Positions 3,578 through 45,560 of a DNA stretch of 48,018 bases are shown here, piece after piece. How positions within the stretch are numbered: position 1 is the stretch's first letter; each line of letters begins with the position of its first letter. The translations under genes and the position numbers were made by a program. The DNA is from Candidatus Microgenomatus sp. (lineage in GTDB: Bacteria > Patescibacteriota > Microgenomatia > UBA8517): NCBI GenBank assembly GCA_020724555.1, contig DYGT01000001.1:129197-177214 (forward strand), given 5' to 3'. The notes under the pieces were generated by a model, which ran no database searches, had not been told where the DNA came from, and saw only the letters and a list, made by a program, of their open reading frames with translations.

Positions 3578-3628
3578 ATACAGTTTAGCATGCAGCTGGG
3601 GGTAGTAGACTACTGGTATAATAAGTAG

Positions 3629-5326: not shown

Positions 5327-5368
5327 TTTTTAACAATCTAACATAAAAAATGTATAATAAAAGCCAAG

Positions 5369-6303: not shown

Positions 6304-6326
6304 GGGTAGCTACCCACTTTATATTT

Positions 6327-18225: not shown

Positions 18226-19554
18226 TCATTTTATAAACCAGTAAAGAAGCAGGTGATAAATGGTCACCAAAAAAACCACGAGGATAGAAATATTTTTTTG
18301 CTTTTCTACGTTTAGACTTGCAAGGGCTACAATGGGTGTCAGATACCAGCTCAAAACCAGGCTCAATTTGGTTAAAATAAAAACGCTATAAACCGCAAAA
18401 CAGGCAAAGATGAGTTTTTGAAAAGAATATTTATTAACCAAAAACCATATTCCGGTTAATCCCCCTATTAATAAAAAGATAAAATTGTTGAGTTTAAAGG
18501 CTTGTGTGTAGCTTACAACTTGATCCAAAAGCCAGATGCCCAAGGAAGGGCTTATTGTTTGGCCGTGATAAAAATTCAAAAGAAACGAAAACGTTTCTCT
18601 TCCTTGCCAAAAAGGATAATAAAATACTGCCGCAATCCCCAAGCAGAAAGCGCCGATTAATATAGATTTATAAAAGAATTGGTTTAAACTTAATTTTTGT
18701 TTAAAAAGGGTAAAAACATAAAACGGCACAAACACGGTTGTAGTGCCTTTAATAAGGATAGACAAAACCAGAAATATAAAAGAAAAAAAGATGCGTTTAT
18801 GTTTTAAAGCCAGCGCCGAAAGCAGAAGCAAAAATATTAGCAAAGATTCATTGTGGGCGTTTGCAGCAAGCTCATAAACCACCAAAGGATTCCAGCTGTA
18901 TAAAAACAGTGCTTTTGCGGACTTCGTGATTTTATAGATTAAATAGCCGTTTACAAGATTCGCGCCAATCAGAAGTGTTTTAAAAAGGATAAATGTTAGT
19001 GGGTAATGGTTCAGGCCGATTGTGTTAATAAAACTGCTGATAAATAAAAACATGGGGCCGTAGAGCGTGGGTTTGCCAGACCAATAGTTACTAATGATAG
19101 GGTAAAGCGGATCGCCCCAATATTGGCTGTAAGTATCAATGTAGGGGTTTGCTCCTTGGTTTACAACCCGGCCAATTGCTATATAGGAGTGTAAATCATT
19201 GGATGTAAAAAAGGGCACAAAAATAAACCCTACCTGAAACAGCACGGAGAATAGAAAAATTGTTTTTAAATTAGCGGACGTAAATTTTGCTTTAAAAAGT
19301 ACTAAAAAATAAATTAGATATAAAATTACAAGAAGTGTAATAACAAGATTCAGGTGTATTTGTGTGTGTAAATTAAGTTCACCAAAATGCCACTTTAGAA
19401 GATAGAAGGAAATATAAAGCAGTTCTGTTGCCAGACCGGCAATAACAAACGGATTTTTTGCAAATTTACTCGCGGCAGCAATCGATGGCTTTTTGTACGA
19501 GTTCGCCCATTTTGTCAAAAACGGAAAGCGATTGTTTCTTTTTGCCTTTTTCAT
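18226..19554 (-). CDS. Polytopic GT-C type mannosyltransferase-like protein
   Basis: VNQGANPYIDTYSQYWGDPLYP, YGPMFLF, SWNPLVVYELAANAHNE; start uncertain (89-nt overlap with upstream ORF). Confidence 0.6.
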   Translation of the reverse strand: MKKAKRNNRFPFLTKWANSYKKPSIAAASKFAKNPFVIAGLATELLYISFYLLKWHFGELNLHTQIHLNLVITLLVILYLIYFLVLFKAKFTSANLKTIFLFSVLFQVGFIFVPFFTSNDLHSYIAIGRVVNQGANPYIDTYSQYWGDPLYPIISNYWSGKPTLYGPMFLFISSFINTIGLNHYPLTFILFKTLLIGANLVNGYLIYKITKSAKALFLYSWNPLVVYELAANAHNESLLIFLLLLSALALKHKRIFFSFIFLVLSILIKGTTTVFVPFYVFTLFKQKLSLNQFFYKSILIGAFCLGIAAVFYYPFWQGRETFSFLLNFYHGQTISPSLGIWLLDQVVSYTQAFKLNNFIFLLIGGLTGIWFLVNKYSFQKLIFACFAVYSVFILTKLSLVLSWYLTPIVALASLNVEKQKNISILVVFLVTIYHLLLYWFIK

Positions 19555-20014
19555 CGATTAAATCAATTTTATCGCTTTTGCTTTTAATATTTAAAGCGTC
19601 TTTGGTGTCAACCACATTTAGATTTATGGCCCAAAAGAGGCTATAGAGTTTGTAAGCTTTTTCAAACAAATCCCAGGCCTCGCCTTTATTACCCTTTTTA
19701 AGCTCTTTGGTGCCCACTTCCATTACCCTCATGCTGGCGGCAAGTAAGTGCTTACTGATGCACCACACCTCACCTTCATAGTCTTTGATAATATTTTTCA
19801 AAAGTTCGGTGCGCATGAGCCTCACTTCATTTAAAAGATCCAGATATTTTTGGTTTTTCGTTTTTTGGGCGGTGAAAAATAGATGCTCCTCAATTGAAAT
19901 AAGGTTCATAATACCGATAGATAAATCTTCGCCGCTGCTAAGGTCAAGATCCTTTTGTTGCGTTACTTTTTCCACCTTATCTAAAAGTGTTTGGATGTCT
20001 TTTTTGTTGGCCAT
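19466..20014 (-). CDS. Cassette protein C, copy 1: soluble helical protein with conserved EEH, DYEGEVWCISKHLLAASMR and C-terminal DCCRE
   Basis: Clear paralog of 39535..40092 over nearly its full length. Confidence 0.75.
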   Translation of the reverse strand: MANKKDIQTLLDKVEKVTQQKDLDLSSGEDLSIGIMNLISIEEHLFFTAQKTKNQKYLDLLNEVRLMRTELLKNIIKDYEGEVWCISKHLLAASMRVMEVGTKELKKGNKGEAWDLFEKAYKLYSLFWAINLNVVDTKDALNIKSKSDKIDLIDEKGKKKQSLSVFDKMGELVQKAIDCCRE

Positions 20015-20545
20015 TTAGATATTTAGATTTAAGCTTGTAAGCAAAAACATTATAACGCTTGCAGTCAAAAGAAAAGCTACGGGTAGAATTACTTTTTGAA
20101 AATCAATAAGCTGCCTTCCTTTGCTTTGCCTGATTTTTTTATCAGCAGCAATACCCAGATAAAAAGTAAATATGCCCAAGATAATGCCAAAAAGGAGTTT
20201 GTCGATTCCTAAAATGGTATTGTTGGGGTGCCCCATTACACCGCCAAGCTTGAGAGGAATGATGGTTAAGATAAACCAGACGATCATGGAAATAATTGAG
20301 CCGTAAGGTATATTTATATTTTTTTTCTTAAGCCAATTGGCGCTCCAAAGCGCGAGAGCCATAATTAGCCCGCCAAACCAGATGCCACTTGCGGCATCAT
20401 CTATGCCCAAGTAGCGCGAAAGGCCCAGCCCGGCGCCGACAGCAACGGTACACACGGGGCAGACAGCTTTTGCTGGAGCTAAATTTATAAAATAAAAAGA
20501 AATTAAAGTAATTCCAAAAACAAAAAATTTAATTATTTTCTTCAT
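20015..20545 (-). CDS. Cassette protein B, copy 1: membrane protein with VCPVCTVAVGAGLGLSRYLGIDD after a signal peptide
   Basis: Signal peptide APAKA then VCPVC, about 4 TM helices; paralog of 39012..39521. Confidence 0.8.
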   Translation of the reverse strand: MKKIIKFFVFGITLISFYFINLAPAKAVCPVCTVAVGAGLGLSRYLGIDDAASGIWFGGLIMALALWSANWLKKKNINIPYGSIISMIVWFILTIIPLKLGGVMGHPNNTILGIDKLLFGIILGIFTFYLGIAADKKIRQSKGRQLIDFQKVILPVAFLLTASVIMFLLTSLNLNI

Positions 20546-22251: not shown

Positions 22252-22492
22252 ATGTATTATGTCTATGTTTTAAAAAATTCAAACGTGTTTTGTATAAGGG
22301 TTTGACTAATAACATGAATCGACGGTTTGATGAACATAATAAAAACAAAAATATTGGCACGCGCGGTAAGGTCCTTGGAGGTTGATATATAGTGAAAAAT
22401 ATGTGAGCAGAAGTAAGGCTCGGGCAAGAGAAAAGTATTTTAAATCTGGTTCGGGCAGAGAACATTTAAAACAAATCATTGATCCCCGGTAA
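22252..22492 (+). pseudogene. Frameshifted GIY-YIG nuclease gene
   Basis: MYYVYVLKNSN / LYKGLTNNMNRRFDEHNKNKNIGTRG / WRLIYSEKYVSRSKARAREKYFKSGSGREHLKQIIDPR* recovered from three frames. Confidence 0.75.
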
Positions 22493-22557
22493 CTCAGCGG
22501 TAGAGTGCTCGCCTGTTAAGCGAAGAGTCGTAGGTTCGAATCCTACCCGGGGAGCCA
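22483..22557 (+). tRNA. tRNA-Asn (GUU), CCA encoded
   Basis: TCCCCGG/CCGGGGA acceptor, loop CTGTTAA, GTAGGTTCGAATCCTAC T-arm, GCCA end. Confidence 0.93.
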
Positions 22558-22862
22558 GGCTTGACGAGAGGCGTAAAAAGCTATTTTGTCAAACGGTTTT
22601 TGCCAGATAAATCGGACTTTTCTGCCCTTTAGCTCCAAGTTCTGAAGTGTCATCTTCAAAAGTAATCGTTTTTCGTGGACTTCAGAACTCTCAAATAATT
22701 TACCAGCGTTAGAAGCCAGTTTTAATAGGTATTCTGAGGTCAAATAGTATTCCTCATCGGCATAATTTAGTTTGCCGATTTTCTCTGTAATTTCTTTCTG
22801 CTTTGCCCGATACTCTTTTCGCTTTTCCTCATACTTGTCCTTAGTAATCCTACATGCACATT
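22543..22862 (-). pseudogene. C-terminal remnant of a large serine recombinase
   Basis: ITKDKYEEKRKEYRAKQKEITEKIGKLNYADEEYYLTSEYLLKLASNAGKLFESSEVHEKRLLLKMTLQNLELKGRKVRFIWQKPFDKIAFYASRQAWLPG*; stop lies within the tRNA-Asn 3' end. Confidence 0.7.
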
Positions 22863-22925
22863 TAGAATTTCTGCTGCCTGTTTTATGGTTAAGAGCTTGG
22901 GTAATTCGTCTTTATTCTTCGGCAT
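22859..22925 (-). pseudogene. N-terminal fragment of a MerR/excisionase-like HTH protein
   Basis: MPKNKDELPKLLTIKQAAEILNVHV, matching the intact HTH protein at 36714..36899; runs out of frame into the recombinase remnant. Confidence 0.7.
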
Positions 22926-28349: not shown

Positions 28350-28380
28350 TGTCAAGTACCCCTTTTGGTAGACACGAATT

Positions 28381-29181
28381 CTAATACAGGTGTTTGTGTT
28401 TGAAAACGTTTGGTGGCATCTTTAGGGTTGTATGAATACGCTGGTTGTTGTAATAGAAAATTACTTGGTGAATTGCCTCAATAAGCTCTCCTGGTGTTTC
28501 AAATCTCTCAAATTCAAGCCCCAAGTCAGTCTTGAAATTATTGTAAAAGCTCTCCTGGTAGCCATTTTCCCAGGGGCTACTTTTCTTGCTCATTGATATT
28601 TGTATTCCTAATTTACCCATAAGCTCTGAGTATTCTTTTGAGCAGTACTCACTCCCTTGATCTGTATGTACCACTTTAGGCAAACCAGTATTTAGTACTG
28701 CATCCCAAAAGGCCTCAAGCACAAACTCCTTTGTGTGCTTGGTTGAGATACTCCAGCCAACAATCTCTCGTGTAAAAAGGTCCATAAAAGTGGCAAGATA
28801 GACAAATCTTTTGTTCCACCTCAGATATGTAAAGTCCCCAACATAAACAATTCCTGAACTCAATGGGCAGAGGCCTTTGATAAGATTTTGGTACTCTGCC
28901 TCTGGTCTCCTCTCATCCCTCCTTTTTCTCCACCTTGCTTTTCTTTTGTATGGTTTAATTCCATATAGTTTCATGACTCTTCTGACTCTCTTCTTGCCAA
29001 TACATAAGGCTAGAGCTATTCTTCTGTGGCCATAGCTGGGGTGGGCTGACATCACAGAAAGGATTTGTTGCCTCAAGACCTCATCTTTTGATACAAGTTT
29101 TTGTACCTTGTAAACAGAAGCCCTTGATAATCCAAGAACAGCACAAATCCTTTCCTTGTTGAAAGAAGGAAACCTAGTCAC
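28381..29181 (-). CDS. IS3-family transposase OrfB (DDE integrase core)
   Basis: GDFTYLRWNKRFVYLATFMDLFTREIVGWSISTKHT, VHTDQGSEYCS, SPWENGYQESFYNNFKTDLG. Confidence 0.96.
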   Translation of the reverse strand: MTRFPSFNKERICAVLGLSRASVYKVQKLVSKDEVLRQQILSVMSAHPSYGHRRIALALCIGKKRVRRVMKLYGIKPYKRKARWRKRRDERRPEAEYQNLIKGLCPLSSGIVYVGDFTYLRWNKRFVYLATFMDLFTREIVGWSISTKHTKEFVLEAFWDAVLNTGLPKVVHTDQGSEYCSKEYSELMGKLGIQISMSKKSSPWENGYQESFYNNFKTDLGLEFERFETPGELIEAIHQVIFYYNNQRIHTTLKMPPNVFKHKHLY

Positions 29182-29450
29182 TAACCCCTTGAAGACATCT
29201 CTCTTTTTTTTAGCTTTGTCAAATCCATTGTAAGAGCCCCAACTATGGCTTTTAATTCCTCATTTTCCCTCCTCAGTCTCCTCACCTCCATTACACTGGC
29301 ACCAGAATCTGCTTTCCCCCTCAGCCAATAGTAAATAGTCTTTGTACTCACTCCATAATCCTTTGACACATCAACTACCTTGGCTCCACCTTTAATTTTA
29401 GATATGATCTCCTCTTTGACTTCTTTTGATATTCCTGCCAACTTAACCAC
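29181..29450 (-). CDS. IS3-family transposase OrfA (HTH)
   Basis: DVSKDYGVSTKTIYYWLRGK...RRLRRENEELKAIVG; A8G slippery run allows a -1 OrfAB fusion. Confidence 0.94.
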   Translation of the reverse strand: MVKLAGISKEVKEEIISKIKGGAKVVDVSKDYGVSTKTIYYWLRGKADSGASVMEVRRLRRENEELKAIVGALTMDLTKLKKREMSSRG

Positions 29451-29507
29451 CCCCTAGTCAGTAAGATTCATTTTAGAATCTGTGTCTACTTTAATGGGTA
29501 CCTGTCA

Positions 29508-29820
29508 GGCCATCCTCTGTTACCCATTCTGCACCGTGCTTGCCGTTGTATTGGGTGCAGTGGTAGTAGTGATAAGTCTTACCACTTTTCTTAATTTTCC
29601 TTTCAGGGGTTATCAAACAACCGCAATCGGCACACCTAATCAAACTTCTGTATAAGAACGGCAAACCAGCGTATTTGAAGTGCTTTTTATGGTGTCCTGT
29701 TTTAATCTCTTGGACTTTATCAAACAGCTCTTTGCTTACCAAAGATTCGTTTCCGGTTAAGCCTAATATTGCCTTTGCCGGAGATTTACCAGGTTTATCT
29801 GGAACGAGAAGGTTATTCAC
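29508..29820 (-). pseudogene. Internal fragment of a large serine recombinase (recombinase and zinc beta-ribbon region)
   Basis: SLVSKELFDKVQEIKTGHHKKHFKYAGLPFLYRSLIRCADCGCLITPERKIKKSGKTYHYYHCTQYNGKHG; cut by the IS on one side and a decayed transposase on the other. Confidence 0.8.
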
Positions 29821-33080: not shown

Positions 33081-33253
33081 GACTAGCAGTATTTGACCCC
33101 AACCTTATTATTCGAATAAACTCCTAATCAGAAATTAATAAAAACTCCTATAATTCGCGATAAAATGCGCTGTGCTGAATGAAAAAAGTAAATTAGATAA
33201 TAGTGAAATAAGAAAAAGGATATGTCAAGTACCCCTTTTGGTAGACACGAATT

Positions 33254-34054
33254 CTAATACAGGTGTTTGTGTTTGAAAACGTTTGGTGGCATCTTTAGGG
33301 TTGTATGAATACGCTGGTTGTTGTAATAGAAAATTACTTGGTGAATTGCCTCAATAAGCTCTCCTGGTGTTTCAAATCTCTCAAATTCAAGCCCCAAGTC
33401 AGTCTTGAAATTATTGTAAAAGCTCTCCTGGTAGCCATTTTCCCAGGGGCTACTTTTCTTGCTCATTGATATTTGTATTCCTAATTTACCCATAAGCTCT
33501 GAGTATTCTTTTGAGCAGTACTCACTCCCTTGATCTGTATGTACCACTTTAGGCAAACCAGTATTTAGTACTGCATCCCAAAAGGCCTCAAGCACAAACT
33601 CCTTTGTGTGCTTGGTTGAGATACTCCAGCCAACAATCTCTCGTGTAAAAAGGTCCATAAAAGTGGCAAGATAGACAAATCTTTTGTTCCACCTCAGATA
33701 TGTAAAGTCCCCAACATAAACAATTCCTGAACTCAATGGGCAGAGGCCTTTGATAAGATTTTGGTACTCTGCCTCTGGTCTCCTCTCATCCCTCCTTTTT
33801 CTCCACCTTGCTTTTCTTTTGTATGGTTTAATTCCATATAGTTTCATGACTCTTCTGACTCTCTTCTTGCCAATACATAAGGCTAGAGCTATTCTTCTGT
33901 GGCCATAGCTGGGGTGGGCTGACATCACAGAAAGGATTTGTTGCCTCAAGACCTCATCTTTTGATACAAGTTTTTGTACCTTGTAAACAGAAGCCCTTGA
34001 TAATCCAAGAACAGCACAAATCCTTTCCTTGTTGAAAGAAGGAAACCTAGTCAC
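33254..34054 (-). CDS. IS3-family transposase OrfB, copy 2
   Basis: Protein identical to 28381..29181. Confidence 0.96.
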   Translation of the reverse strand: MTRFPSFNKERICAVLGLSRASVYKVQKLVSKDEVLRQQILSVMSAHPSYGHRRIALALCIGKKRVRRVMKLYGIKPYKRKARWRKRRDERRPEAEYQNLIKGLCPLSSGIVYVGDFTYLRWNKRFVYLATFMDLFTREIVGWSISTKHTKEFVLEAFWDAVLNTGLPKVVHTDQGSEYCSKEYSELMGKLGIQISMSKKSSPWENGYQESFYNNFKTDLGLEFERFETPGELIEAIHQVIFYYNNQRIHTTLKMPPNVFKHKHLY

Positions 34055-34323
34055 TAACCCCTTGAAGACATCTCTCTTTTTTTTAGCTTTGTCAAATCCA
34101 TTGTAAGAGCCCCAACTATGGCTTTTAATTCCTCATTTTCCCTCCTCAGTCTCCTCACCTCCATTACACTGGCACCAGAATCTGCTTTCCCCCTCAGCCA
34201 ATAGTAAATAGTCTTTGTACTCACTCCATAATCCTTTGACACATCAACTACCTTGGCTCCACCTTTAATTTTAGATATGATCTCCTCTTTGACTTCTTTT
34301 GATATTCCTGCCAACTTAACCAC
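34054..34323 (-). CDS. IS3-family transposase OrfA, copy 2
   Basis: Protein identical to 29181..29450. Confidence 0.94.
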   Translation of the reverse strand: MVKLAGISKEVKEEIISKIKGGAKVVDVSKDYGVSTKTIYYWLRGKADSGASVMEVRRLRRENEELKAIVGALTMDLTKLKKREMSSRG

Positions 34324-34363
34324 CCCCTAGTCAGTAAGATTCATTTTAGAATCTGTGTCTACT

Positions 34364-36712
34364 TTAATGGGTACCTGTCACAAAGATAAAGTCAGTTTTG
34401 GCTGGATCATTGATTGCGCCTGTGTAATAAATGTCCTCAACATTGTCTGGGTCTTCACCGAGTTTAGTAAGCATTCGCTCAAAAAACTCCCGCTCATCCT
34501 CGGAGTCAAAGTTGTAAGGATCGTAATGAAAGCCAAAGAGCGGTAGTTGCCCAGCCTTTACCTTGTAATCTTTCAGTTCCAGCACATATTTTTCCAGAGA
34601 GGTTTTGTTGACTCTGATATGGGTCACATAGGAGGTTTTACCGTCAATGGTTTCTTCCTCGAATCCTTTTTGTTTGATAAGAGCTAATGCCTCCTCGACT
34701 GTTTCATTGACCACTTTGTAGCGCATGGTTTGTTTTTCTATTTGGGAGCGTATAAGTTCCAGTTCAAACGCTCCGATTTCACCCTCTGGGTATAAGCCTT
34801 GAAGCAGTTTATAAGTTTTTAATGAGTCCAGGCGGTAGGCATGAGCCAGGACTACGGCAGCTTGGAATAGATCAATCTTTCTGTCTGTCACCGCTCCTTT
34901 CTGAGTTCCCACTTCAACCAGCACCCCTTTCCTTTGGGCTTTGGACATAGAGTAAATAGTCTTTTCAAAGGATTTGACCGTTTCTTTGCCTGGTTTATCG
35001 ATTTTTAGATTTTCTGCAGCTTTCGAGTCTTCTGGGACTATCTTTTGGATGAGCTTTTTAACCAGCAATGGTTCAAGCTCAATCTTTCTGAGGGTCACCT
35101 TGACTGATACCATGTCAGCTGCAACCCTATTGAGATCGTCCAGCCCTTCCCCAAAGGTTTCTTGCAACTGCCGATCAAGAATGGAGACATTATCTTTTGA
35201 GAGATAAATCTTAGCTTTCTTGGTGTTGCCATTAACCTGCCTTAAACATCGACTGGCAGCTTGTAAAACAAAGTTATTGCTTGAAGTGAGTTTCCTTGCC
35301 AGGGCTGTAGCAAATAAGGATAGGCAGTTCCACCCTTCCGTGCCTTTATTAACAAGTAGGAAGACTCGGTAGGGCAGTTTGGGATCGTTGATGCGGTTGT
35401 CAAAAAGGTCTTTGACCTCGTCTGTTGATTTATTATGCACTGGTAAGACGACTGAAGGGTCGATTTTAAGAGAGATGAGAGTTTGCTCAACTATTGGTTG
35501 AGCTTTTTCTAAATCACCGATCTGGGGGAAGTAGATTGCCAGCTTTGCGTATTCGCCGCTTTCGACTCGGACATCTTTGTATTCCTGGAAGAAGTCTTTG
35601 ACAATATCGATCACAAAGTCTTTCTCGGAGACCTTCGGATAAGCCATAATGTTGCCCCTAACTTCTTTGAGGATGCCGTCTTCAATGCCCTGGGACAGCC
35701 CATACCAGTAAATAACATCCCGCAGCAGCTGTCTTTGGTAGTAAGGAGTGCCTGTGGTGTTAACAACTGCCAGAAGATTGGTTTTTTCACTGATGTAGTT
35801 AATGGTCTGGCGCACCCGCTTGAGATCCTCTGCTAATGCTTGTCCGTAGGTGTGATGCGCTTCGTCTGAGAAGACCGCCAGGTGAGGCAGTGAAGTGATG
35901 GTTTGCAGTCTTAAATTAGCCACCAGCTGCTTTGCTTCTTCAACTTCCAGTTTCAACTGCCCTGAGAGAAGGGATTTGGGGATGCTGTTCTTTTGAAGCC
36001 GTATCTTCTCGGTGTTGGTGACGATGACATTAAAGGAACTGCCTCGGATAACAGGGATGTCTTTCTCACCATCTCTGGTGTAGGTGAATTTAACATTGGT
36101 GATAAAGGATTTATAAAAACGGGGAGGAAGTATCTTGTCATAGGGAGTATCTGAGATTTCCTTTAATGCACCTAAAATAGTTTTTCCAGGCGCAAAGACC
36201 AGAGCATTTTTGATAAAGATGCCGTCTTCATCCTGATATTCCAAAGCCATCACAAACTCGGTAGCGATAATAGAGGCGATCAGGATTGTCTTACCCGCTC
36301 CCATTGCCAATGCCAGGATATAACTGGGGTATGAAAGGGTAAGTGTCTCCCTCAAAGCTTCAAGCTTATACTTCTTAACAAAGACATTATCAGTTTTTAC
36401 CTTTTCGAAGATTGTGTCTATTCCGCCTCCTGCCAGTAACAAGTCGGTTAGATCCTCCTCTGACAGAGAAATCCCAAGAGCTTTCAGCAGATCCTTACCT
36501 TGGAAGTATTCTTTATAAAGCTCAAAGATATTAGGTGTGTTTTTGACCAAGCGCAGATACCAGTAAGTTTCGAGTGCCTCAAATTGTGCTTGTCTTAGAA
36601 AATTATTTTTATTGAAGTTTAGGATGGTTGCAATAACAGGGTAGGAGGAGGGATAACCCTGCTGTCTCCAGTTAATTACATCTGATTTTAATTGTTGATA
36701 TAAGTTGCTCAT
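34364..36712 (-). CDS. Type III restriction Res-like DEAD/DEAH helicase, C-terminus truncated by the IS
   Basis: ALAMGAGKTILIAS Walker A, FSDEAHHTYGQ, GTEGWNCLSLFA, LQAASRCLRQ; last residues (VTGTH) derive from the IS end. Confidence 0.8.
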   Translation of the reverse strand: MSNLYQQLKSDVINWRQQGYPSSYPVIATILNFNKNNFLRQAQFEALETYWYLRLVKNTPNIFELYKEYFQGKDLLKALGISLSEEDLTDLLLAGGGIDTIFEKVKTDNVFVKKYKLEALRETLTLSYPSYILALAMGAGKTILIASIIATEFVMALEYQDEDGIFIKNALVFAPGKTILGALKEISDTPYDKILPPRFYKSFITNVKFTYTRDGEKDIPVIRGSSFNVIVTNTEKIRLQKNSIPKSLLSGQLKLEVEEAKQLVANLRLQTITSLPHLAVFSDEAHHTYGQALAEDLKRVRQTINYISEKTNLLAVVNTTGTPYYQRQLLRDVIYWYGLSQGIEDGILKEVRGNIMAYPKVSEKDFVIDIVKDFFQEYKDVRVESGEYAKLAIYFPQIGDLEKAQPIVEQTLISLKIDPSVVLPVHNKSTDEVKDLFDNRINDPKLPYRVFLLVNKGTEGWNCLSLFATALARKLTSSNNFVLQAASRCLRQVNGNTKKAKIYLSKDNVSILDRQLQETFGEGLDDLNRVAADMVSVKVTLRKIELEPLLVKKLIQKIVPEDSKAAENLKIDKPGKETVKSFEKTIYSMSKAQRKGVLVEVGTQKGAVTDRKIDLFQAAVVLAHAYRLDSLKTYKLLQGLYPEGEIGAFELELIRSQIEKQTMRYKVVNETVEEALALIKQKGFEEETIDGKTSYVTHIRVNKTSLEKYVLELKDYKVKAGQLPLFGFHYDPYNFDSEDEREFFERMLTKLGEDPDNVEDIYYTGAINDPAKTDFIFVTGTH

Positions 36713-36713
36713 A

Positions 36714-36899
36714 TTATATTTTCATTAATTTTTCTATGTCTTCTGGTCGATAGCGCCTGTCTCCTCGCTCGTTTACCCTTATGGCTTTGAGTTTCCCGCG
36801 CTTGTCCCAACGCCTTAAAGTCTCCACATGCACATTCAGGATCTCTGAAGCCTGTTTTATTGTTAGCAACTTTGGCAATGTCGTGTTTTTCTTCGGCAT
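36714..36899 (-). CDS. MerR/excisionase-type helix-turn-helix protein
   Basis: LPKLLTIKQASEILNVHVETLRRWDKRGKLKAIRVNERGDRRYRPEDIEKLM; ends 1 nt before the helicase start. Confidence 0.8.
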   Translation of the reverse strand: MPKKNTTLPKLLTIKQASEILNVHVETLRRWDKRGKLKAIRVNERGDRRYRPEDIEKLMKI

Positions 36900-36962: not shown

Positions 36963-37009
36963 TTGACTTTTCATCAACTGCTTTCATATAATATGAACAT
37001 GGGTTCATA
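36963..37009 (+). promoter_or_regulatory. Promoter (TTGACT-18-TATAAT) with overlapping inverted-repeat operator
   Basis: -35 36963..36968, -10 36987..36992, inverted repeat TATGAAC-atgg-GTTCATA 36992..37009, extra half-site TTCATA 36983..36988. Confidence 0.7.
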
Positions 37010-37322
37010 CAGTTGTTGCTCACCATCAAGTAAGGAATCAAAACAAGTCGAGTCGTTATCCTCACTTCTTAAGTTGGTGTCCGAGGAAAGCCGTTTAAAG
37101 CTCTTGTGCATTCTTCGCCGAGGGGAGCATTGTGTGTGTGAGCTGATGGAGCATGTAGATATGTCCCAGAGCCTGATTTCCCATCACCTCAAGGATTTAA
37201 AGGATGCTGGTGTTGTTACGGACAACAAGCAGGGTTTGCGGGTGTATTACTCGCTTACCGATAAAGGCAAGCAGATTACCAATTTGTTATTTAAGATTTC
37301 TGAAAAGGGGGTGGCTTTATGA
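36993..37322 (+). CDS. ArsR-family transcriptional repressor
   Basis: EESRLKLLCILRRGEHCVCELMEHVDMSQSLISHHLKDLKDAGVVTDNKQGLRVYYSLT; alternative start at 36999. Confidence 0.9.
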   Translation: MNMGSYSCCSPSSKESKQVESLSSLLKLVSEESRLKLLCILRRGEHCVCELMEHVDMSQSLISHHLKDLKDAGVVTDNKQGLRVYYSLTDKGKQITNLLFKISEKGVAL

Positions 37323-37561
37323 AAATCCAAGTCTTAGGTTCAGGCTGTCCTACTTGCAAGAAGCTGTATGAACTAACTCAGCAAGCGGTCAAAGAGCTCA
37401 ATCTTAACGAGGAGGTTGAGTATATTACCGATGTCTCAAAGATCATTGAAATGGGAGTAATGTCCAGCCCTGTTCTTGCCGTTGACGGAAAGCCTGTCAT
37501 GGTTGGTTTCTTACCCGATGTAGAGAAAGTTAAGAGTCTTCTTAAGGAGGCGCAGAAGTAA
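37319..37561 (+). CDS. Small thioredoxin-like redox-active disulfide protein (CPTC)
   Basis: MKIQVLGSGCPTCKKLYELTQQAV...VMSSPVLAVDGKPVMVG. Confidence 0.88.
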   Translation: MKIQVLGSGCPTCKKLYELTQQAVKELNLNEEVEYITDVSKIIEMGVMSSPVLAVDGKPVMVGFLPDVEKVKSLLKEAQK

Positions 37562-37564
37562 TTT

Positions 37565-38545
37565 ATGGATATTTTTAGACCCTTACAACTTTTTGCTGAT
37601 CTTGCCACCTACGGGTGGCTCAATTTAGGCAGGCAGTCTTATTTGGGCAGTGCTGTCAATTTCTTCATTTATGATGTTCTAAAAATCGGATTGCTTTTGG
37701 TGGTTATCAACTACTTCATGGCGATTACCCGCTACTATTTCCCGATGGAGAAAGTGCGGGATATGCTTACCAAAAGACGCTGGTTTGGGTTGGATTATCT
37801 ATTTGCTGCCGCACTGGGTGTTATCACTCCGTTTTGCTCCTGCTCTTCTATACCGCTTTTTATTGGCTTTGTGGGTGCAGGAATCCCTTTGGGGGTGACT
37901 TTTGCCTTCCTGATCAGCTCTCCACTGGTTAATGAGTCCTCTTTATATCTGTTTCCTGCAATGTTTGGTATGAAGGTAACTGTTTTATATAACCTGGTTG
38001 GTATTGCTGTGGCAGTTCTGGGAGGAATGTTAGTTCATCGGTTGCGAGTTGAAAAATATGTCAAACAAGAACTATTGAAGTTTAAATCCAGAAAACAAGT
38101 CGAGGAAGAACATGGAGGATTGGCATTACCCCCCAAAGAACTCCTGGGTTATTTTTGGAAAGACGGCATGGCAATTACCAAAGAAGTGTTTCCTTATGTG
38201 GTCTTGGGGGTTGGTATCGGAGCTTTGATTCATGGTTTCGTCCCTGCCCATCTGGTGGAACAATACTTGGCAGTCGAAACTTGGTGGACAGTTCCTTTAG
38301 CAACACTTTTTGGGTCTCCTTTGTATGCTAATTCGGTTAGTGTTATTCCTGTAATGGAGGCTTTAGTCCTTAAGGGTGTGCCTCTGGGAACAGCGCTGGC
38401 TTTTATGACGGCGATTGTGACTGTTTCTATCCCTCAAGCGATGATTTTAAAAAAAGTCATGAAATGGGAACTATTGACTTTATTTTTCGGAATTACAATC
38501 ATCGGCATTATGGTCATGGGTTATTTATTTAACTGGATTTTATAA
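37565..38545 (+). CDS. YraQ/ArsP-like permease (DUF318-type)
   Basis: AAALGVITPFCSCSSIPLFIGFVGAGIPLGVTFAFLISSPLVNESS and duplicated TM halves. Confidence 0.85.
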   Translation: MDIFRPLQLFADLATYGWLNLGRQSYLGSAVNFFIYDVLKIGLLLVVINYFMAITRYYFPMEKVRDMLTKRRWFGLDYLFAAALGVITPFCSCSSIPLFIGFVGAGIPLGVTFAFLISSPLVNESSLYLFPAMFGMKVTVLYNLVGIAVAVLGGMLVHRLRVEKYVKQELLKFKSRKQVEEEHGGLALPPKELLGYFWKDGMAITKEVFPYVVLGVGIGALIHGFVPAHLVEQYLAVETWWTVPLATLFGSPLYANSVSVIPVMEALVLKGVPLGTALAFMTAIVTVSIPQAMILKKVMKWELLTLFFGITIIGIMVMGYLFNWIL

Positions 38546-38547
38546 GT

Positions 38548-39015
38548 ATGAAACAAGCTATTTTTACTATCGCTATCATCCTGGTTATCGTTGGTCTGCT
38601 TACTGCAGTGGTTTTAGGTAGTAAGGGCAGAAAAGCTGACACACAAGCCACACAGCAGCCTTCAGGGGCTGCTTCTTCAGCGACTCCCGCTCTCAGCATC
38701 CAAATGCCTATTTTCTTCTATGGTAATACCTGCCCGCACTGCGCCGATGTTGAGAAATGGATGCAGGAGAATAAGATTGAAGAGAAAATTGAAGTTGTTA
38801 AAAAAGAAGTGTATGACAACCGAGCCAATTCTCTGGAGTTGTCCCAAGCGGCAGAAAGCTGCGGTCTGGACACCTCTTCAATCGGTGTGCCGTTTCTTTT
38901 TACTCCTGAAGGCAAGTGTCTTATTGGCACGCCTGATATTGTTGGCTATTTAAGCGATAAAGCTGGTTTGTCTGGCAGTAATGAGGCAACCGAGTCTGGA
39001 AAGGAGGCTGAATGA
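38548..39015 (+). CDS. Cassette protein A, copy 2: membrane-anchored thioredoxin-fold protein (CPHC)
   Basis: IFFYGNTCPHCADVEKWMQ...IGVPFLFTPEGKCLIGTPDIVGYL. Confidence 0.85.
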   Translation: MKQAIFTIAIILVIVGLLTAVVLGSKGRKADTQATQQPSGAASSATPALSIQMPIFFYGNTCPHCADVEKWMQENKIEEKIEVVKKEVYDNRANSLELSQAAESCGLDTSSIGVPFLFTPEGKCLIGTPDIVGYLSDKAGLSGSNEATESGKEAE

Positions 39016-39521
39016 TGAAACTGCTTTTAAGTGTGTTTGCCATGCTCATAGCTTTCCTGATGACAGTTACGCAGGCTCATGCGGTCTGTCCTGTCTGCAC
39101 GGTAGCGGTAGGAGCGGGACTTGGTATTTCTCGCTGGATTGGTATTGATGATAGTGTGACGGGTATTTGGGTTGGCGGGCTGATTCTATCCAGCGGTTTA
39201 TGGCTTGCTGATTGGATTGGTAAGAAAGGGTGGAAAGTGCCATATAAAGAGGCAGTTTCTGTTGGGCTATTCTTTTTGTTTGTCATACCGCCCTTGTATT
39301 GGAGCAAGATGATTGGTCTTCCTGGCAACACCTTATGGGGAGTTGATAAGGTGTTACTGGGAACAGTGATTGGCTCAGTTATTTTTCTTGGCGGTGTCTG
39401 GCTGGATAAGTGGCTGAGAACAACTAATGGTGGCAAGGTGTATGTTTACTATCAAAAAGTGATTATCCCAGTGTTTCTCTTGTCGCTTGCCAGTTTTGTC
39501 TTTTATCTTATTACCAGTTAA
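39012..39521 (+). CDS. Cassette protein B, copy 2: VCPVCTVAVGAG membrane protein
   Basis: Signal peptide QAHA then VCPVCTVAVGAGLGISRWIGIDD. Confidence 0.85.
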   Translation: MMKLLLSVFAMLIAFLMTVTQAHAVCPVCTVAVGAGLGISRWIGIDDSVTGIWVGGLILSSGLWLADWIGKKGWKVPYKEAVSVGLFFLFVIPPLYWSKMIGLPGNTLWGVDKVLLGTVIGSVIFLGGVWLDKWLRTTNGGKVYVYYQKVIIPVFLLSLASFVFYLITS

Positions 39522-39534
39522 AGGAGGTGAAACT

Positions 39535-40092
39535 ATGAAAAACAAACAAATTCAGCCTGACATTAACGAGTTTATGGACAAGGTTAAAAAGATGGAGAGG
39601 GGAGAAAAACTCGATCTTTCATCAGACGAAGATCTTTCTATTGGTATTATGAACCTAATTTCAATGGAGGAGCATTTCTTCTTTTCCTACAACAAAACCA
39701 AAGATCCTAAATATCTTGATCTTTTAAACGAGATTCGAGAGATGCGAAAAAGCACCTTGAAGCGGATTATCAAAGACTATGAGGGAGAGGTCTGGTGTAT
39801 CAGTAAACACTTACTGGCTGCCTCGATGCGTTTTATGGAGGTTGGCACAAAGGCGCTTACCAAGGGTGACAAAGGTGATGCTGAGGATATGTTCCAGAAG
39901 TCCTACCAGCTTTATAGCTTGTTCTGGGGATTAAATCTGGGCTTAGTGCAGACCAAGGACATAAAGCATACCGATTCAAAAGAGGTTGCTTTTGTCAGCG
40001 AAGATCCAAAGCCTTCAGTTAAAGGTTCGACAGGCATCTTTGAGAAGCTGGGTCAGTTGGTGCAAAAAGCGATTGATTGCTGTAAGGAGTAA
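39535..40092 (+). CDS. Cassette protein C, copy 2: soluble protein ending DCCKE
   Basis: LDLSSDEDLSIGIMNLISMEEHFFF, DYEGEVWCISKHLLAASMRFMEVGTKAL; SD aaaggaggtga. Confidence 0.85.
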   Translation: MKNKQIQPDINEFMDKVKKMERGEKLDLSSDEDLSIGIMNLISMEEHFFFSYNKTKDPKYLDLLNEIREMRKSTLKRIIKDYEGEVWCISKHLLAASMRFMEVGTKALTKGDKGDAEDMFQKSYQLYSLFWGLNLGLVQTKDIKHTDSKEVAFVSEDPKPSVKGSTGIFEKLGQLVQKAIDCCKE

Positions 40093-40095
40093 GGC

Positions 40096-40243
40096 TTAGA
40101 AGTTAAGAAAACGGTTGACTTCCTTGTTGGTAAATTCAGGGTATTCCAGCTCAGTTGCCCAGTCTGTTCTTCTGAAAACATACCATCGTTCGAGCATCCT
40201 AAAAACCCAATCGGATAGAATGTTTTCCGAACATTTGTAACGA
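40096..40243 (-). pseudogene. Repeated 3' gene fragment, copy A
   Basis: KCSENILSDWVFRMLERWYVFRRTDWATELEYPEFTNKEVNRFLNF*. Confidence 0.7.
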
Positions 40244-40247
40244 TTGA

Positions 40248-40550
40248 TTAAGAGCTTTGTGGAATTTTAAGTGCCACTTGCCGTGTTGGAGATTCTGTCG
40301 GTTTTGTTTCTACAAAATTTGTTAGATGTTCCACTATTTCACGGTCGATTGCCCTAATCTCATATGAAACTTTGCCTTCGGGAATAATGTAGTTTATCCC
40401 CTCAACTAACTCGACAGTTTCTCCCTCGCCTCCAATCAATAGCACATTAACACCGTCAATCTTTTCCTCCGCCAATTTATATCTCGCATAACGATCACTG
40501 GAACAGACTCCTCTTGTCACAAAGTTAAATAGGTTCTCGGATTCCTTCAT
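40248..40550 (-). CDS. Hypothetical protein
   Basis: ORF overlapping the upstream gene's end, operon-like. Confidence 0.5.
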   Translation of the reverse strand: MKESENLFNFVTRGVCSSDRYARYKLAEEKIDGVNVLLIGGEGETVELVEGINYIIPEGKVSYEIRAIDREIVEHLTNFVETKPTESPTRQVALKIPQSS

Positions 40551-41269
40551 ACCCCAGTAGGCGTTATTAAAATACGAGCACTTTCTTCGCTAATACCAAA
40601 CTTTCTAACTATAAATTCAAAAAACTGGTTTCCGATTTCTGGATTAAATTTATATCTTATCCAATCACCTTCCTGTTGTCGCTCTACAGCAAATCGAGAA
40701 AACAGTTTCTCCGCAAGAGTGTTTGACGGAGCACAAGAACCCCTAATTTCTGTAACTCCTGACTCTGCCAAAGATTTTATAGGCAAACTCAATAAAGCGA
40801 CTTTCGATGTTCCCGCTATCTCTCCAGAGGCGGCAACCACTGGAATGTAACCCCTCCCTGTAAAAATACCAGATCCACTTTGATCAGCAACCACTTCTCT
40901 TCTACCTACGGTTACACCCACTAAACTTCCTTTCTCTTCGATTAAAAATGTGTTTCCATTCCAAGTTTCTTTAAAATCGACAATTCTTCCGTCAGGCAAC
41001 CCGTGGAATTCCTCGGTTAATTGCTCGACAGTGAATCTCGGATAAGCTTGGGGTAAGCTATCATTTAAAACTTTTGCAATTTCTTCCAAATAGGGGATTG
41101 CCATTCCAAGATTCATAACTCTTAGTACTCGTAGGCCATCCTTAAGCGAGACTGCTGTTATTGGAAATTCCTGCCTGCAATACTCCCGAATTTCATTAGG
41201 AATGCCTACACCTCCCCACGATGATGCCTGGCGATAAAGATCTTTTTCAGTTTCTATATTCATTGTCAC
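40547..41269 (-). CDS. Hypothetical protein
   Basis: 240-aa ORF in the minus-strand operon. Confidence 0.6.
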   Translation of the reverse strand: MTMNIETEKDLYRQASSWGGVGIPNEIREYCRQEFPITAVSLKDGLRVLRVMNLGMAIPYLEEIAKVLNDSLPQAYPRFTVEQLTEEFHGLPDGRIVDFKETWNGNTFLIEEKGSLVGVTVGRREVVADQSGSGIFTGRGYIPVVAASGEIAGTSKVALLSLPIKSLAESGVTEIRGSCAPSNTLAEKLFSRFAVERQQEGDWIRYKFNPEIGNQFFEFIVRKFGISEESARILITPTGV

Positions 41270-42044
41270 CTCCGCTTTTGAGAACCTCTAATGGATCTTG
41301 CTCACAATTAAAAATCAAATCATAAATGCTAAGATTTGGAACAAATCCAGAACCTTCAGAATTTTGAAATTGCTTGTAAGATGGATGTTGAAAGTTGTAT
41401 GTTTGTATCCCAATCCCAGCATCTTTAAATTTTTCAATTTCTTTTTTATTGCTGCCCTCAAACTTAAGATTCAAATAAAAATCTTTTGGTATGGGATAAT
41501 TCCTAGGTAAGTAGATAACTTTATCATAATTTTCGATATTAACCGCTCGCCTAATCGCATCAATCAGAGCATCTGCTTTTTTCAGACCTCGATCTACATA
41601 ATTATTCTGACTATCCCTAACATATTTTGTTTTAATTCCCAGAATATCTTTTGCCAAAAGAGTTAATGCATCACACAAGTCATTTAAATATTCCCATTTC
41701 CTGTCCAGATAAATTGAGGCAAGTGAACCTGAATATCTTTCAAAATAAGGACTCTTTCGATATATTGACTTAATATACTCCCAGTGGTCTCTCAAGATGC
41801 TGGGGTTGACAATTTTTTTATCCTTAATCGGTTCTCTTCCTTTATCTACAGGAACTGAGAGCCATTTACTAACCCTGTTGCTATAAAAAATTTGTCTATT
41901 CTGCCATTCTCTTGCTACATACTGAGCCGTGTCTAGAGAGATAAACAGATCGCTCTTATACATTTTATAGAAATATCCACAATAACGATGATACCCTGGT
42001 TGGTGAATTGCTATACGGATGACCTTATTAGATGATTTTTCCAT
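41247..42044 (-). CDS. WbqC-like family protein
   Basis: IAIHQPGYHRYCGYFYKMYKSDLFISLDTAQYVAREWQNRQIF and LSIYDLIFNCEQDPLEVL. Confidence 0.8.
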   Translation of the reverse strand: MEKSSNKVIRIAIHQPGYHRYCGYFYKMYKSDLFISLDTAQYVAREWQNRQIFYSNRVSKWLSVPVDKGREPIKDKKIVNPSILRDHWEYIKSIYRKSPYFERYSGSLASIYLDRKWEYLNDLCDALTLLAKDILGIKTKYVRDSQNNYVDRGLKKADALIDAIRRAVNIENYDKVIYLPRNYPIPKDFYLNLKFEGSNKKEIEKFKDAGIGIQTYNFQHPSYKQFQNSEGSGFVPNLSIYDLIFNCEQDPLEVLKSGGDNEYRN

Positions 42045-42558
42045 TATATTTAATGTCCTTGAAAATATTTAGGATTACGGCTAGCCAGCCAGAGGGTAGA
42101 AAGGGAGAGTAAATATTTAAAAAATCGTTTGTGGAAAAACCGTAGATTATTTTGTTTGGAAAAACCTTGACAAATGTATGTAAGGAGCGCCTCAAGTGGG
42201 GCTGACTGGTAACAATCAGCATTGGAAAGGTGTTTTTTTGTTTAACCAATTCTTTTAGAAAAAGGGCATCTTCGTAGGTGTTTGTTGATTTATCCTGAAT
42301 GATGATTTCTCCGACCCTTTGTTTTTTGGCTATTTCGAGCATCAAATTTCGTTTAAACTTCCCACATATAATGAATTTGGCACCTCTATGTTTTTTCCTT
42401 AACTTAAGTCCTTTTCTGACTCTTACGGCAGTGTCCCAATCAAAATCACCAGACAGAACAACTATTGAGCGAATTTTGGGGTGTTCATCGAAAAGCAGGC
42501 TTTGGGAATACAATAAAAAAAGGACGGAAATCAATAAATATAGAATCAATAAAATCAT
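42028..42558 (-). CDS. YdcF-like (DUF218) protein
   Basis: SIVVLSGDFDWDTAVRVRKGLKL, STNTYEDALFLKELV, VTSQPHLRRS. Confidence 0.7.
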   Translation of the reverse strand: MILLILYLLISVLFLLYSQSLLFDEHPKIRSIVVLSGDFDWDTAVRVRKGLKLRKKHRGAKFIICGKFKRNLMLEIAKKQRVGEIIIQDKSTNTYEDALFLKELVKQKNTFPMLIVTSQPHLRRSLHTFVKVFPNKIIYGFSTNDFLNIYSPFLPSGWLAVILNIFKDIKYNGKII

Positions 42559-42559
42559 A

Positions 42560-43243
42560 CTAAAAAATCCAAAAATTTAAATAGAATTCCTCAGCATACT
42601 TACAGCCGCTGTGTAACCCCGATTCTCTAGCTTGTGCCTTTATGACTTCAGGATCCATATACTCATTAGTCCCTTGAGACTTAAACAGCGAGAGTAATTT
42701 CAACTTTTGGTCGAGATGTTTAGAGATGTCTATATATAAATTGGGCGTAAACCTGTCTCTAGTAAACAATGAGGCGTAGAGTAATATCGCTGGCTTTTTC
42801 CTTCTTGTTGCGCTCAAAGTTGCCCACCCGATATTTCTATGATCCTGATGAACATCGTCGATGCAATGTGTAAATATCAAATCTGGTTGATATTCTTTGA
42901 CCACCTGTTCAATTTCGTTGACTAAATTCGAGTCAGCAAAGATCGAACCGTCTTTATAATCCAACAACTTAGTTTCGGATACACCCAAGAACTCCCCAGC
43001 CTTTGCTTGTTCTTTGGCTCTTGTCAGAGGATCGCTTTTTAACTCACCTTTTGAAAATACCAAAGAGTATATATTCGCATCATATTCTTTTCTTAGTTTT
43101 AATAAGGTGCCGCCACACGATAGTTCGATATCATCAGGATGGGCGCCGATTGCTAATACTTTTAGATTTTTTGATAGGGTTAACATGATATAGTTCTTCG
43201 CAGAATTGGCACAATTATATCCGATATTTCGCCAAAAGTGCAA
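42560..43243 (-). CDS. PIG-L/LmbE family deacetylase
   Basis: LAIGAHPDDIELSCGGTLLKL and THCIDDVHQDHRNIGWATLSA. Confidence 0.9.
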   Translation of the reverse strand: MHFWRNIGYNCANSAKNYIMLTLSKNLKVLAIGAHPDDIELSCGGTLLKLRKEYDANIYSLVFSKGELKSDPLTRAKEQAKAGEFLGVSETKLLDYKDGSIFADSNLVNEIEQVVKEYQPDLIFTHCIDDVHQDHRNIGWATLSATRRKKPAILLYASLFTRDRFTPNLYIDISKHLDQKLKLLSLFKSQGTNEYMDPEVIKAQARESGLHSGCKYAEEFYLNFWIF

Positions 43244-43284
43244 TTTAAGCAGAAAGATATGCCCGAAGCGACCAAAAAAGGAAC

Positions 43285-43426
43285 TTAGAAGTTCAGAAAC
43301 CTGTTTACTTCCTTGTTCGTAAACTCAGGATATTCAAGGTAAGTCACCCAATCAATCTGTCGGAAAAAGTACCATCGTTCGAGCATTCTAAGAACTGTAT
43401 TGGATAGAATGTTTTCCGAACATTTA
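43285..43426 (-). pseudogene. Repeated 3' gene fragment, copy B
   Basis: KCSENILSNTVLRMLERWYFFRQIDWVTYLEYPEFTNKEVNRFLNF*. Confidence 0.7.
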
Positions 43427-43514
43427 AAACAGGGCATCTTTTTGCATTAGTAGGATCGTTGTTAACAACTCTGATATCTTCTGATATACTTCCTTCGACT
43501 GCCCAATCAAAAAA

Positions 43515-44978
43515 ATGGGCAAAGAAAATCCTCAATTTGACCAAACTGCGGAAAGAGCAAGATCCTTAGTGAGTGGGGCAATTGCTGAGGTAGTTACTTC
43601 CTCAAGTGGGTTGCAGCAGGACAAATGGATTTTGGCACAAGGCAATTTAGATTTACCAATATACACATATACTCAGACTCTTTTGGAAGCAGGCATTGAT
43701 GAAACCCACATTAAAAATTTGTTGGGATTAGTAAGAGATTTGGAAATTGATGTTAGTGATCCCTATACTTCTAGCTCCGAGTTGTCAGTAATCGCAGGTG
43801 TTTTGTCAGAGGATTTGATTGGTGTGGATTTGTCAGAACACAGGAGGGCAATGGATAGAGTTAAATTACTGCCCGTTGTTGTTCAGGAGGCAGAAACTCA
43901 ACCGCCTTCGCCAAGTATAACTTATACAGAGGATGAAAGATTACAATTTCAAGAACTCACCAACCTAAAAAAATGGCAAAGAGGTTTAATACAATCAAAT
44001 GGTAATTTTTTAGAAATATCAAAGCGGGTTTTAGAGGGAAACAATCAAACGCTAGAAGCCCTAACAAGAGGACATCTAGAAAAGTTTTGGAGAGATAGTG
44101 GTATAGATGTGGGTAGTAAGGCAACTGTCTTTTTCCGTGACCACAAGACATATGCGGGAGATATTGATTTTTACTATTGGGGTGTTGAACCTGAAAAATG
44201 CACTCTTGAGCTATCTCGATATTTAATGTCTTTGGGCTATAAAGTTGACCATAGGTCAAACATATTCGTGGAAGATTTAATAAGAAACAGTCAAAAGATT
44301 GATAACGGCTTCTTAGCTGCATATTTGCAGATGTATTTTTATATGGGTAAAGCTATTGAGTTTAATGGAGACAGTTTTGAAGAGCATTATGCCGAGGATG
44401 TGTCGCCAGTGGTTGATTTAGGTTCTATGTGGAGGACTGCCAATAAAAGTCTCATTCCTGCCGCTGAAGTGGTTGAGAGGATTTATAGCCAAAATATACC
44501 AGAGTATCCAGGGCTTAAAGATTATCCATTCCGCCTTTTGACTATTACTTTAATGGGTTTAGCTATGAAGTATGATATTCCTTTTATTCTAAGTCACGAC
44601 AACTTAGTAAATAAACTTGAGCAATATATAAGTGAAGATGAAGCAGTTGTACTAAGAAACGCTTTTTATTACATTAACCAAGCACGCAACCTTTACCAGC
44701 TTGTAACCGAGCGGCGTTGGGAAATGATGACGCCTGAGATAAAACAGGAAATTGATAAGGCTCTTGTTATACAATCAGGAATGAGGATTGAGGACATGTT
44801 AGTTTTATTGGCTGAAAAAGTGAAGTCTATATCTTCTACTCACTTTGGTGAACCAGAAAACGGAGATGTGCTAGACTTAAATGAAGCGAGACAACAAGCA
44901 CTTCCTTTTGTCGCACAGTCGTATAGGAAGGTGGCAGAAAGATATAAGCAGTTAGTTTGGCTCTCACATCGAGAGTAA
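43515..44978 (+). CDS. Hypothetical 487-aa protein with possible nucleotidyltransferase-like segment
   Basis: Long ORF; YAGDIDFYYWG resembles a nucleotidyltransferase active-site strand. Confidence 0.55.
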   Translation: MGKENPQFDQTAERARSLVSGAIAEVVTSSSGLQQDKWILAQGNLDLPIYTYTQTLLEAGIDETHIKNLLGLVRDLEIDVSDPYTSSSELSVIAGVLSEDLIGVDLSEHRRAMDRVKLLPVVVQEAETQPPSPSITYTEDERLQFQELTNLKKWQRGLIQSNGNFLEISKRVLEGNNQTLEALTRGHLEKFWRDSGIDVGSKATVFFRDHKTYAGDIDFYYWGVEPEKCTLELSRYLMSLGYKVDHRSNIFVEDLIRNSQKIDNGFLAAYLQMYFYMGKAIEFNGDSFEEHYAEDVSPVVDLGSMWRTANKSLIPAAEVVERIYSQNIPEYPGLKDYPFRLLTITLMGLAMKYDIPFILSHDNLVNKLEQYISEDEAVVLRNAFYYINQARNLYQLVTERRWEMMTPEIKQEIDKALVIQSGMRIEDMLVLLAEKVKSISSTHFGEPENGDVLDLNEARQQALPFVAQSYRKVAERYKQLVWLSHRE

Positions 44979-44999
44979 GCAAATAGCAAAATTGTAAAA

Positions 45000-45446
45000 A
45001 TGAGAAAAACTTCTACGGCAATAATCGTTTACGACAAAAAAATACTCTTTTTTAAAAGAGATAATATTCCTACAATAGTTGAGCCAGATAGGTGGCAATT
45101 ACCAGGTGGTCATATTGAAGATGGGGAAACACCGACAACAGCACTCAAAAGAGAATTGATTGAGGAGGTAAGTTATGCTCCTTCTAATTTAATTTTTGTA
45201 GGCAAACTTAGAAGCAGCGAGAGGGAGGTTTACATATTTTGGGGCTATGTAAGTAGAAACGAAGCCGCTAAATTTAAATTAGGAGAAGAAGAGGGCCAAG
45301 AAATAAGATTTATGTCTGTTGATGATGCTCTAAAACAAAAATTGACTAAAAACGTAGAGTTTTACCTGTCAACCTTCAAAAACCTTATAGTTAAACACTT
45401 AGAAGGAAGGACTATACCAGACATAAGAGAGTTTTTACTACACTAA
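45000..45446 (+). CDS. NUDIX hydrolase
   Basis: WQLPGGHIEDGETPTTALKRELIEEVSY Nudix box. Confidence 0.92.
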   Translation: MRKTSTAIIVYDKKILFFKRDNIPTIVEPDRWQLPGGHIEDGETPTTALKRELIEEVSYAPSNLIFVGKLRSSEREVYIFWGYVSRNEAAKFKLGEEEGQEIRFMSVDDALKQKLTKNVEFYLSTFKNLIVKHLEGRTIPDIREFLLH

Positions 45447-45479
45447 TTATATTTCTGGATTTATACATTAATTACAGGC

Positions 45480-45560
45480 TTAGGAATTTACCAACTTCTT
45501 TGTTGGTAAATTCAGGGTATTCCAGCTCGCTGACCCAATCAATTCGTCCGAATTCATAAT
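45480..45560 (-). pseudogene. Repeated 3' gene fragment, copy C
   Basis: EFGRIDWVSELEYPEFTNKEVGKFLSL*. Confidence 0.6.

Follow-up and report, generated by a model that had tools for sequence, protein, structure and literature searches.

The DNA analysed here (the window) is a stretch of 48,018 nucleotides from Candidatus Microgenomatus sp. (assembly GCA_020724555.1, contig DYGT01000001.1), situated at the end of a 177-kb contig in a 0.9-Mb draft genome. Between 40 and 46 kb it carries three copies (A, B and C) of a short sequence, the tail, that encodes one protein C-terminus. We consider it probable (roughly 0.8) that all three represent displaced right-hand attachment arms of elements that encode a large serine recombinase (LSR). 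The element's own attachment site (attP) would lie in the 3' end of the LSR gene, and the chromosomal site (attB) would be the 3' end of tRNA-Asn. In this scheme, recombination between attP, within the 3' end of the recombinase gene, and attB, the tRNA 3' end (tRNA-Asn, antisense ...TGG/CTCCCCGGG..., the slash marking the crossover), would leave the LSR body abutting the tRNA; the LSR C-terminus would be rewritten by tRNA-antisense sequence, and the original tail would end up at the distal end of the insert. Successive insertions at a single tRNA, then loss of most recombinase genes, would produce a composite island in which co-oriented tails stand between blocks of cargo.

Candidate attachment arms in the window

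The sequence-only reading of the window had described three minus-strand copies of one C-terminus, without a gene body upstream and placed exactly between gene modules. Sequence comparison agreed with this description: all three copies lie on the minus strand and encode the same C-terminus, none is preceded by an in-frame gene body, and all fall in gaps between modules. Repeat A (40095-40241) and repeat B (43284-43430) are 147 nt long and 80% identical; copy C (45472-45558), truncated at the 5' end, shares a 65-nt core at 74-82% identity. The copies were mapped over the whole 0.9-Mb genome, as the same reading had proposed, by BLASTN with A, and only A, B and C matched (E values of 1.5e-79, 1.3e-32 and 5.9e-12); a weaker, divergent tail was found on another contig (C4). 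A and B are also alike over about 42 bp upstream of the C-terminal tail; this is a second, left arm, and it makes the repeat unit larger than the peptide alone would indicate. The parts are as follows.

40096..40194, minus strand: tail A, putative right attachment arm, the last ~32 LSR codons (stop codon 40096-40098, crossover 40194/40195)
40195..40241, minus strand: left arm of junction A (TGTTCGG...TCTATCC...GGATG), shared with B
43285..43383, minus strand: tail B, putative right attachment arm (stop codon 43285-43287, crossover 43383/43384)
43384..43430, minus strand: left arm of junction B, shared with A
45472..45558, minus strand: tail C, putative right arm, truncated at the 5' end with the crossover bases lost (stop codon 45472-45474)

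The left arm of A and B has a counterpart at the same spacing from the tails in a second genome with an array (G359), and a related left arm without a tail is present on another contig of the window genome. A pattern search of 382 genomes of the class located the left arm at both junctions of the window genome, at two junctions in G359 and, among ordinary genes, once in G119, and nowhere else. We take it as the putative left attachment arm of LSR-less cassettes. Some left arms had been read as native tRNA flanks; this was rejected, several of them being 3' ends of other LSR clades.

Origin of the tail and position of the crossover

A search with the tail peptide gave matches in 14 of 57 genomes including the window's own, mostly isolated tails of ~32 aa. 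In one genome (G030) the tail was fused to a longer upstream body, and this longer sequence was then used as the query against the 382 genomes. The matches fell into three groups: intact frames of ~500 aa, alike only up to ...ASRQ-W-L; isolated tails, of which only the final ~35 residues were alike; and a few loci with both body and tail. Five intact relatives carry the Resolvase and Recombinase domains (PF00239 and PF07508) and usually the zinc ribbon PF13408; the window itself has LSR fragments only. The intact genes with this C-terminus that the sequence-only reading had suggested looking for do exist, as LSR frames of 573 aa (G187) and 572 aa (L125) with the tail attached in frame, and the shared C-terminus is evidently the last ~32 codons of a Microgenomates LSR family. 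The idea of remnants of a gene family was in this respect close, as the copies appear to derive from the 3' end of an LSR gene. An intact LSR elsewhere in the genome (C4, 558 aa) was considered as their source and rejected because it lacks this C-terminus. The named relatives recovered were mostly from Woesebacteria, Pacebacteria and other Microgenomates, and the phage and plasmid records contained distant LSRs only, all below 60% identity, the best matches being at ~29%. Tails were also matched on contigs labelled Omnitrophota, Micrarchaeota, Anaerolineae, Bacteroidetes and Desulfotomaculum (L116, L124, L129, L131 and L134), which reflects either transfer or binning errors.

When about 50 tails were aligned with their flanks, homology was found to start abruptly at (T)GG/CTCGAACGATGG, with (T)GG/CTCGA at the breakpoint, and the left sides were unrelated save for recurring classes. 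The LSR side mirrors the tails: the bodies are homologous up to TGG and diverge beyond it, continuing into tRNA-Asn antisense, tRNA-Gln antisense, other right arms or a tail. The crossover is at the conserved Trp-Leu codons TGG/CTC, 32 codons ahead of the LSR stop. Two loci (L063 and L087) share 1.2 kb at 92% identity and part exactly at the junction; three others (L079, L088 and L095) have one left arm with three different right arms, and the same left arm is joined at the same base to different right arms in L022 and the window and in L060 and L094. The copies thus have every appearance of site-specific recombination junctions with a base-sharp crossover, and the earlier suggestion of a recombination boundary gains support from this crossover being common to tails and LSR bodies. 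As an alternative, the copies might be remnants of LSR paralogues that degenerated in place, the 3' end surviving by chance, and decayed LSR pieces are indeed present in the window. However, one breakpoint is common to dozens of independent copies and is seen from the LSR side too, and tails are in excess at cargo ends; in-place decay was rejected on the common breakpoint and is most improbable.

Note that at least three further right-arm families follow TGG/CTC in LSRs, 'LPLKDLF...' (L075, L077 and L168), 'SPNFTLTDSL...' (L076 and L088) and '...IYIPDLR' (L072 and L073), so that several tail types exist.

Insertion at tRNA-Asn

Many of the divergent LSR endings ('WLPREDSNLQPRS', 'WLPGLDSNQRP') are antisense tRNA. 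ARAGORN placed tRNA-Asn(GTT) over the 3' end of the LSR gene in the window; the same was seen in about a dozen other genomes, and in two genomes the tRNA was tRNA-Gln. A complete tRNA-Asn is kept at the junction in the window and in other genomes, as in tRNA islands, and the LSR 3' end coincides with the junction; the recombinase gene adjoins the element end with the attachment site beside it. The following features of the window are concerned.

22483..22557, plus strand: tRNA-Asn(GTT), putative target gene and attB arm; its antisense 3' end is the C-terminus of the LSR remnant
22546..22911, minus strand: truncated LSR, the start of a MerR-type gene fused by deletion to the LSR C-terminal region and ending inside tRNA-Asn
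29503..29748, minus strand: second LSR fragment (profile positions 258-335 of 500), adjoining an insertion sequence (IS) copy

LSR-free tRNA-Asn loci also exist, and their tRNA genes often end at GCTCC with no encoded CCA; those bearing an LSR read TGGCTCC in nearly all cases (GGGCTCC in one), which means that the CCA can come from the element. The core in common is GCTC. Where a tail and tRNA-Asn were both in reach on one contig, a hand tally gave 13 cases (G000, G025, G033, G030, G050, G059, G093, G290, G240, G345, G367, G332 and G038; the tRNA of G038, G059 and G240 is matched over part of its sequence), and in every one of them the tRNA lies downstream of the tail and is antisense to it. 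At every multi-tail locus all tails are co-oriented, and in the window A, B and C lie upstream of the truncated LSR in the same orientation. This geometry is predicted by an attP inside the LSR gene 3' end, which would leave the body at the tRNA and the tail at the far end. To judge from these comparisons, tRNA-Asn is the main target, and co-oriented tails upstream of the LSR are the regular arrangement.

A different recombinase could target the 3' ends of LSR genes and deposit cargo there, the LSR being the victim and not the agent. The left arm of A and B matches no LSR found here and left arms are diverse, as this would lead one to expect; LSR bodies, however, meet tRNA genes at the same crossover, a position usual for an integrase that borders its own island, and TGG/CTC is common to several LSR clades. 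We regard such a recombinase as unlikely. Under the proposal of displaced LSR attachment arms, the LSR itself would carry out the reaction and the circular form would restore the LSR with its tail.

Cargo units between the tails

Among 55 tails with a downstream open reading frame (ORF), 49 face a gene on the opposite strand, and in 36 (hand count from the list) the tail stop lies within 25 bp of the convergent cargo stop; the corresponding shares among 727 control ORFs from these loci are 32% with a convergent neighbour and 9% with one at 25 bp or less. The binomial probability for the orientation is 3e-18, a value computed as if the tails were independent, although related loci are not fully so. 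An ordinary paralogous family decayed in place with no association with module borders, the case named as fatal to the sequence-only reading, does not agree with these counts. As in integrons, the cassettes are co-oriented, single-gene units with the site at the gene 3' end. In the window, tails A and C conform to the convergent-stop rule and B does not. The cargo modules are listed below.

36963..40092, plus strand: redox cargo module, from an ArsR-like regulator to a 201-aa protein
40248..43243, minus strand: cargo module between A and B, with a PIG-L deacetylase, DUF218, WbqC and two unknowns
43515..45446, plus strand: cargo module between B and C, with a 487-aa protein of no known family and a NUDIX hydrolase

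The last gene of the redox module (39487-40092, plus strand) has its stop 3 bp from that of tail A. The block between A and B ends 6 bp from repeat A and starts ~41 bp past the tail B stop, and the pair between B and C starts ~85 bp from repeat B and ends 25 bp ahead of the tail C stop.

Complete, junction-bounded units recur in distant genomes, with different neighbours, in two pairs of loci: L061 (3559-6246) with L069 (814-3479), at 80% identity, and L062 (223-1276) with L104 (11230-12283), at 89%. No recognised LSR was found on either of the L062 and L104 stretches examined. The redox module and the nuclease module of the window both recur in G093, each near a tail. Cassette-sized units evidently occur in varied contexts, and the support that they give to the movement of individual cassettes is indirect. 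We suggest, tentatively, a serine-recombinase counterpart of integrons, in which LSRs resident at Microgenomates tRNA-Asn capture and shuffle small cassettes, the site being the 3' end of the LSR gene and exchanges being able to swap the LSR tail. LSR-less cassettes would be moved in trans, as in integrons.

The attachment-arm reading also has a version minus cassette shuffling, that of tandem accretion only, the chances of which come near to even. The segments between tails would be old complete LSR islands, inserted at or beside tRNA-Asn, of which the recombinase has decayed, and no unit would move without its own LSR. This fits the LSR remnants common near arrays (two in the window), the LSR-plus-tail fusions, which are the expected element-element junctions, and the length of the first units (17.5 kb from tRNA-Asn to A). 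It fits less well with ~1-kb LSR-less units that have the same left arm and tail and recur in L062 and L104, and with cargo stops that abut tail stops far oftener than control genes do.

RNA folding and selection on the tails

A test for structured RNA had also been proposed from the sequence alone. It gave no support for A and B, which folded no better than their shuffles (z of 0.35 and -0.92); copy C folded better than its shuffles (z of -3.3, a local hairpin), and Rfam gave nothing relevant, with sub-threshold chance matches only. Structured RNA or attC-like folding was rejected on the missing A/B signal and the chance nature of the Rfam matches. For 56 non-redundant tails, nonsynonymous divergence (pN) was 0.29 and synonymous divergence (pS) 0.68, an estimate that is supportive and not conclusive, being biased by the picking of tails with a protein model. 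Synonymous divergence was 0.50 in the first eight codons and 0.74 in the remainder, which fits a DNA site close to the crossover with protein constraint farther on. This pattern suggests that isolated tails may periodically serve as LSR C-termini. Open frames, purifying selection and the hairpin of copy C would also be found if the tail were an independent small gene or RNA element and not an attachment arm. Yet intact LSRs have the tail, in frame, as their C-terminus, the isolated copies have no upstream start region in common, and neither the A/B folds nor the Rfam matches are unusual or relevant; this explanation is scarcely probable.

Points against the attachment-arm reading

Several observations weigh against displaced attachment arms, in addition to the bias of the selection estimate. 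The evidence is comparative sequence analysis of draft genomes throughout. Tail C is without crossover bases, junctions A and B read ATG/CTC instead of TGG/CTC, and some junctions elsewhere have TTC replacing CTC. No recombinase matching the A/B left arm was seen among the LSRs found here, and the outer end of the island falls beyond the contig. No matching pair of filled and empty sites was recovered: for the candidate pair G274/G030, at the same tRNA-Asn locus, the flank was not found beside an island in G030.

Relation to known systems

SSV-type elements (Sulfolobus spindle-shaped virus type) typically insert at tRNA genes. Their 'suicide' integrases, with the attachment site inside the integrase gene, are tyrosine recombinases and have been called exclusively archaeal (PMC8371274). 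The arrangement described here is similar in that the site is within the integrase gene and a displaced gene fragment marks the far end of the element. It differs in that the SSV integrases are tyrosine recombinases of which the gene is split into inactive parts, whereas here a bacterial serine recombinase exchanges only its last ~32 codons, and the hosts are Microgenomates.

Integrons are co-oriented arrays of small cargo genes, with the cargo stop beside the recombination site and the recombinase gene antisense to the array, and their integrase, a tyrosine recombinase, works on attC in its folded single-stranded form. The small co-oriented units, the cargo stop next to the site and the antisense recombinase gene are common to both systems; unlike in integrons, the enzyme here is a serine recombinase, its putative site codes for the tail of a protein, and A and B have no unusual fold. 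No tyrosine IntI gene was seen in the window region studied, the associated enzymes being serine recombinases. The array resembles integrons in plan and fails their defining tests of enzyme class and folded site.

In the staphylococcal cassette chromosome (SCC), the ccr large serine recombinases insert at rlmH, and the segments of composite islands are set apart by several copies of the attachment site. The arrangement described here shares with SCC the large serine recombinases, the insertion at a conserved gene's 3' end and the logic of composite islands, but the SCC repeats come from the target gene rlmH, and here the repeat is a piece of the recombinase gene, with tRNA-Asn as the target. 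According to Islander, tRNA islands are usually formed by tyrosine integrases and have a displaced tRNA fragment at the far end (PMC4383910). Here too the tRNA 3' end is the place of insertion and the tRNA stays intact; at the far end, in contrast, there is a displaced fragment of the recombinase gene.

We found no account of this arrangement in the open-access literature. It would provide a mechanism, with a searchable mark (TGG/CTC and the 32-codon tail), for the gain of accessory genes at one tRNA locus in very small, gene-poor bacteria, and an example, from a bacterial serine recombinase, of an integrase gene that contains the attachment site, against the 'exclusively archaeal' of the review (PMC8371274). 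It may represent an independent origin of integron-like cassette arrays. Cargo genes also become findable, DNA between two tails being a candidate cassette.

Composition of the island

The window is a composite, largely fossil island. From the tRNA, the order is the LSR remnant/MerR fusion, a nuclease gene, the second LSR fragment, two identical IS copies, a 782-aa helicase/restriction-like gene with a MerR-type neighbour, the redox module, A, the PIG-L/DUF218/WbqC module, B, the 487-aa protein with NUDIX, and C. The 487-aa cargo protein (43515-44978) has no Pfam match and was found in 3 of the 382 genomes, in the other two with a broken frame. The IS copies (28350-29507 and 33223-34380) are IS3-like elements of 1158 bp with two ORFs and are 100% identical; because they flank the segment at 30-33 kb, this segment could be a composite transposon or the product of a recent duplication. 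A second, diverged copy of the redox cargo beside tail A (39012-40092) lies at 19466-20545, on the chromosomal side of tRNA-Asn; the DNA of the two is 73% identical over 313 bp.

A second eroded array is present in the window's own genome (L168, G000:C1:83000-97000, at 2963-8492), with ASCH-like and other small genes. One A/B-type left arm there has no tail beside it; the opening bases of a tail are also present, and an LSR remnant runs into a right arm of another kind ('LPLKNLFCN...'). A short MerR-type regulator (window 36714-36899; L024, L029, L062, L064 and L066) recurs beside LSRs and a helicase/restriction-like gene and may be a directionality factor; the same regulator is fused to the LSR remnant of the window.

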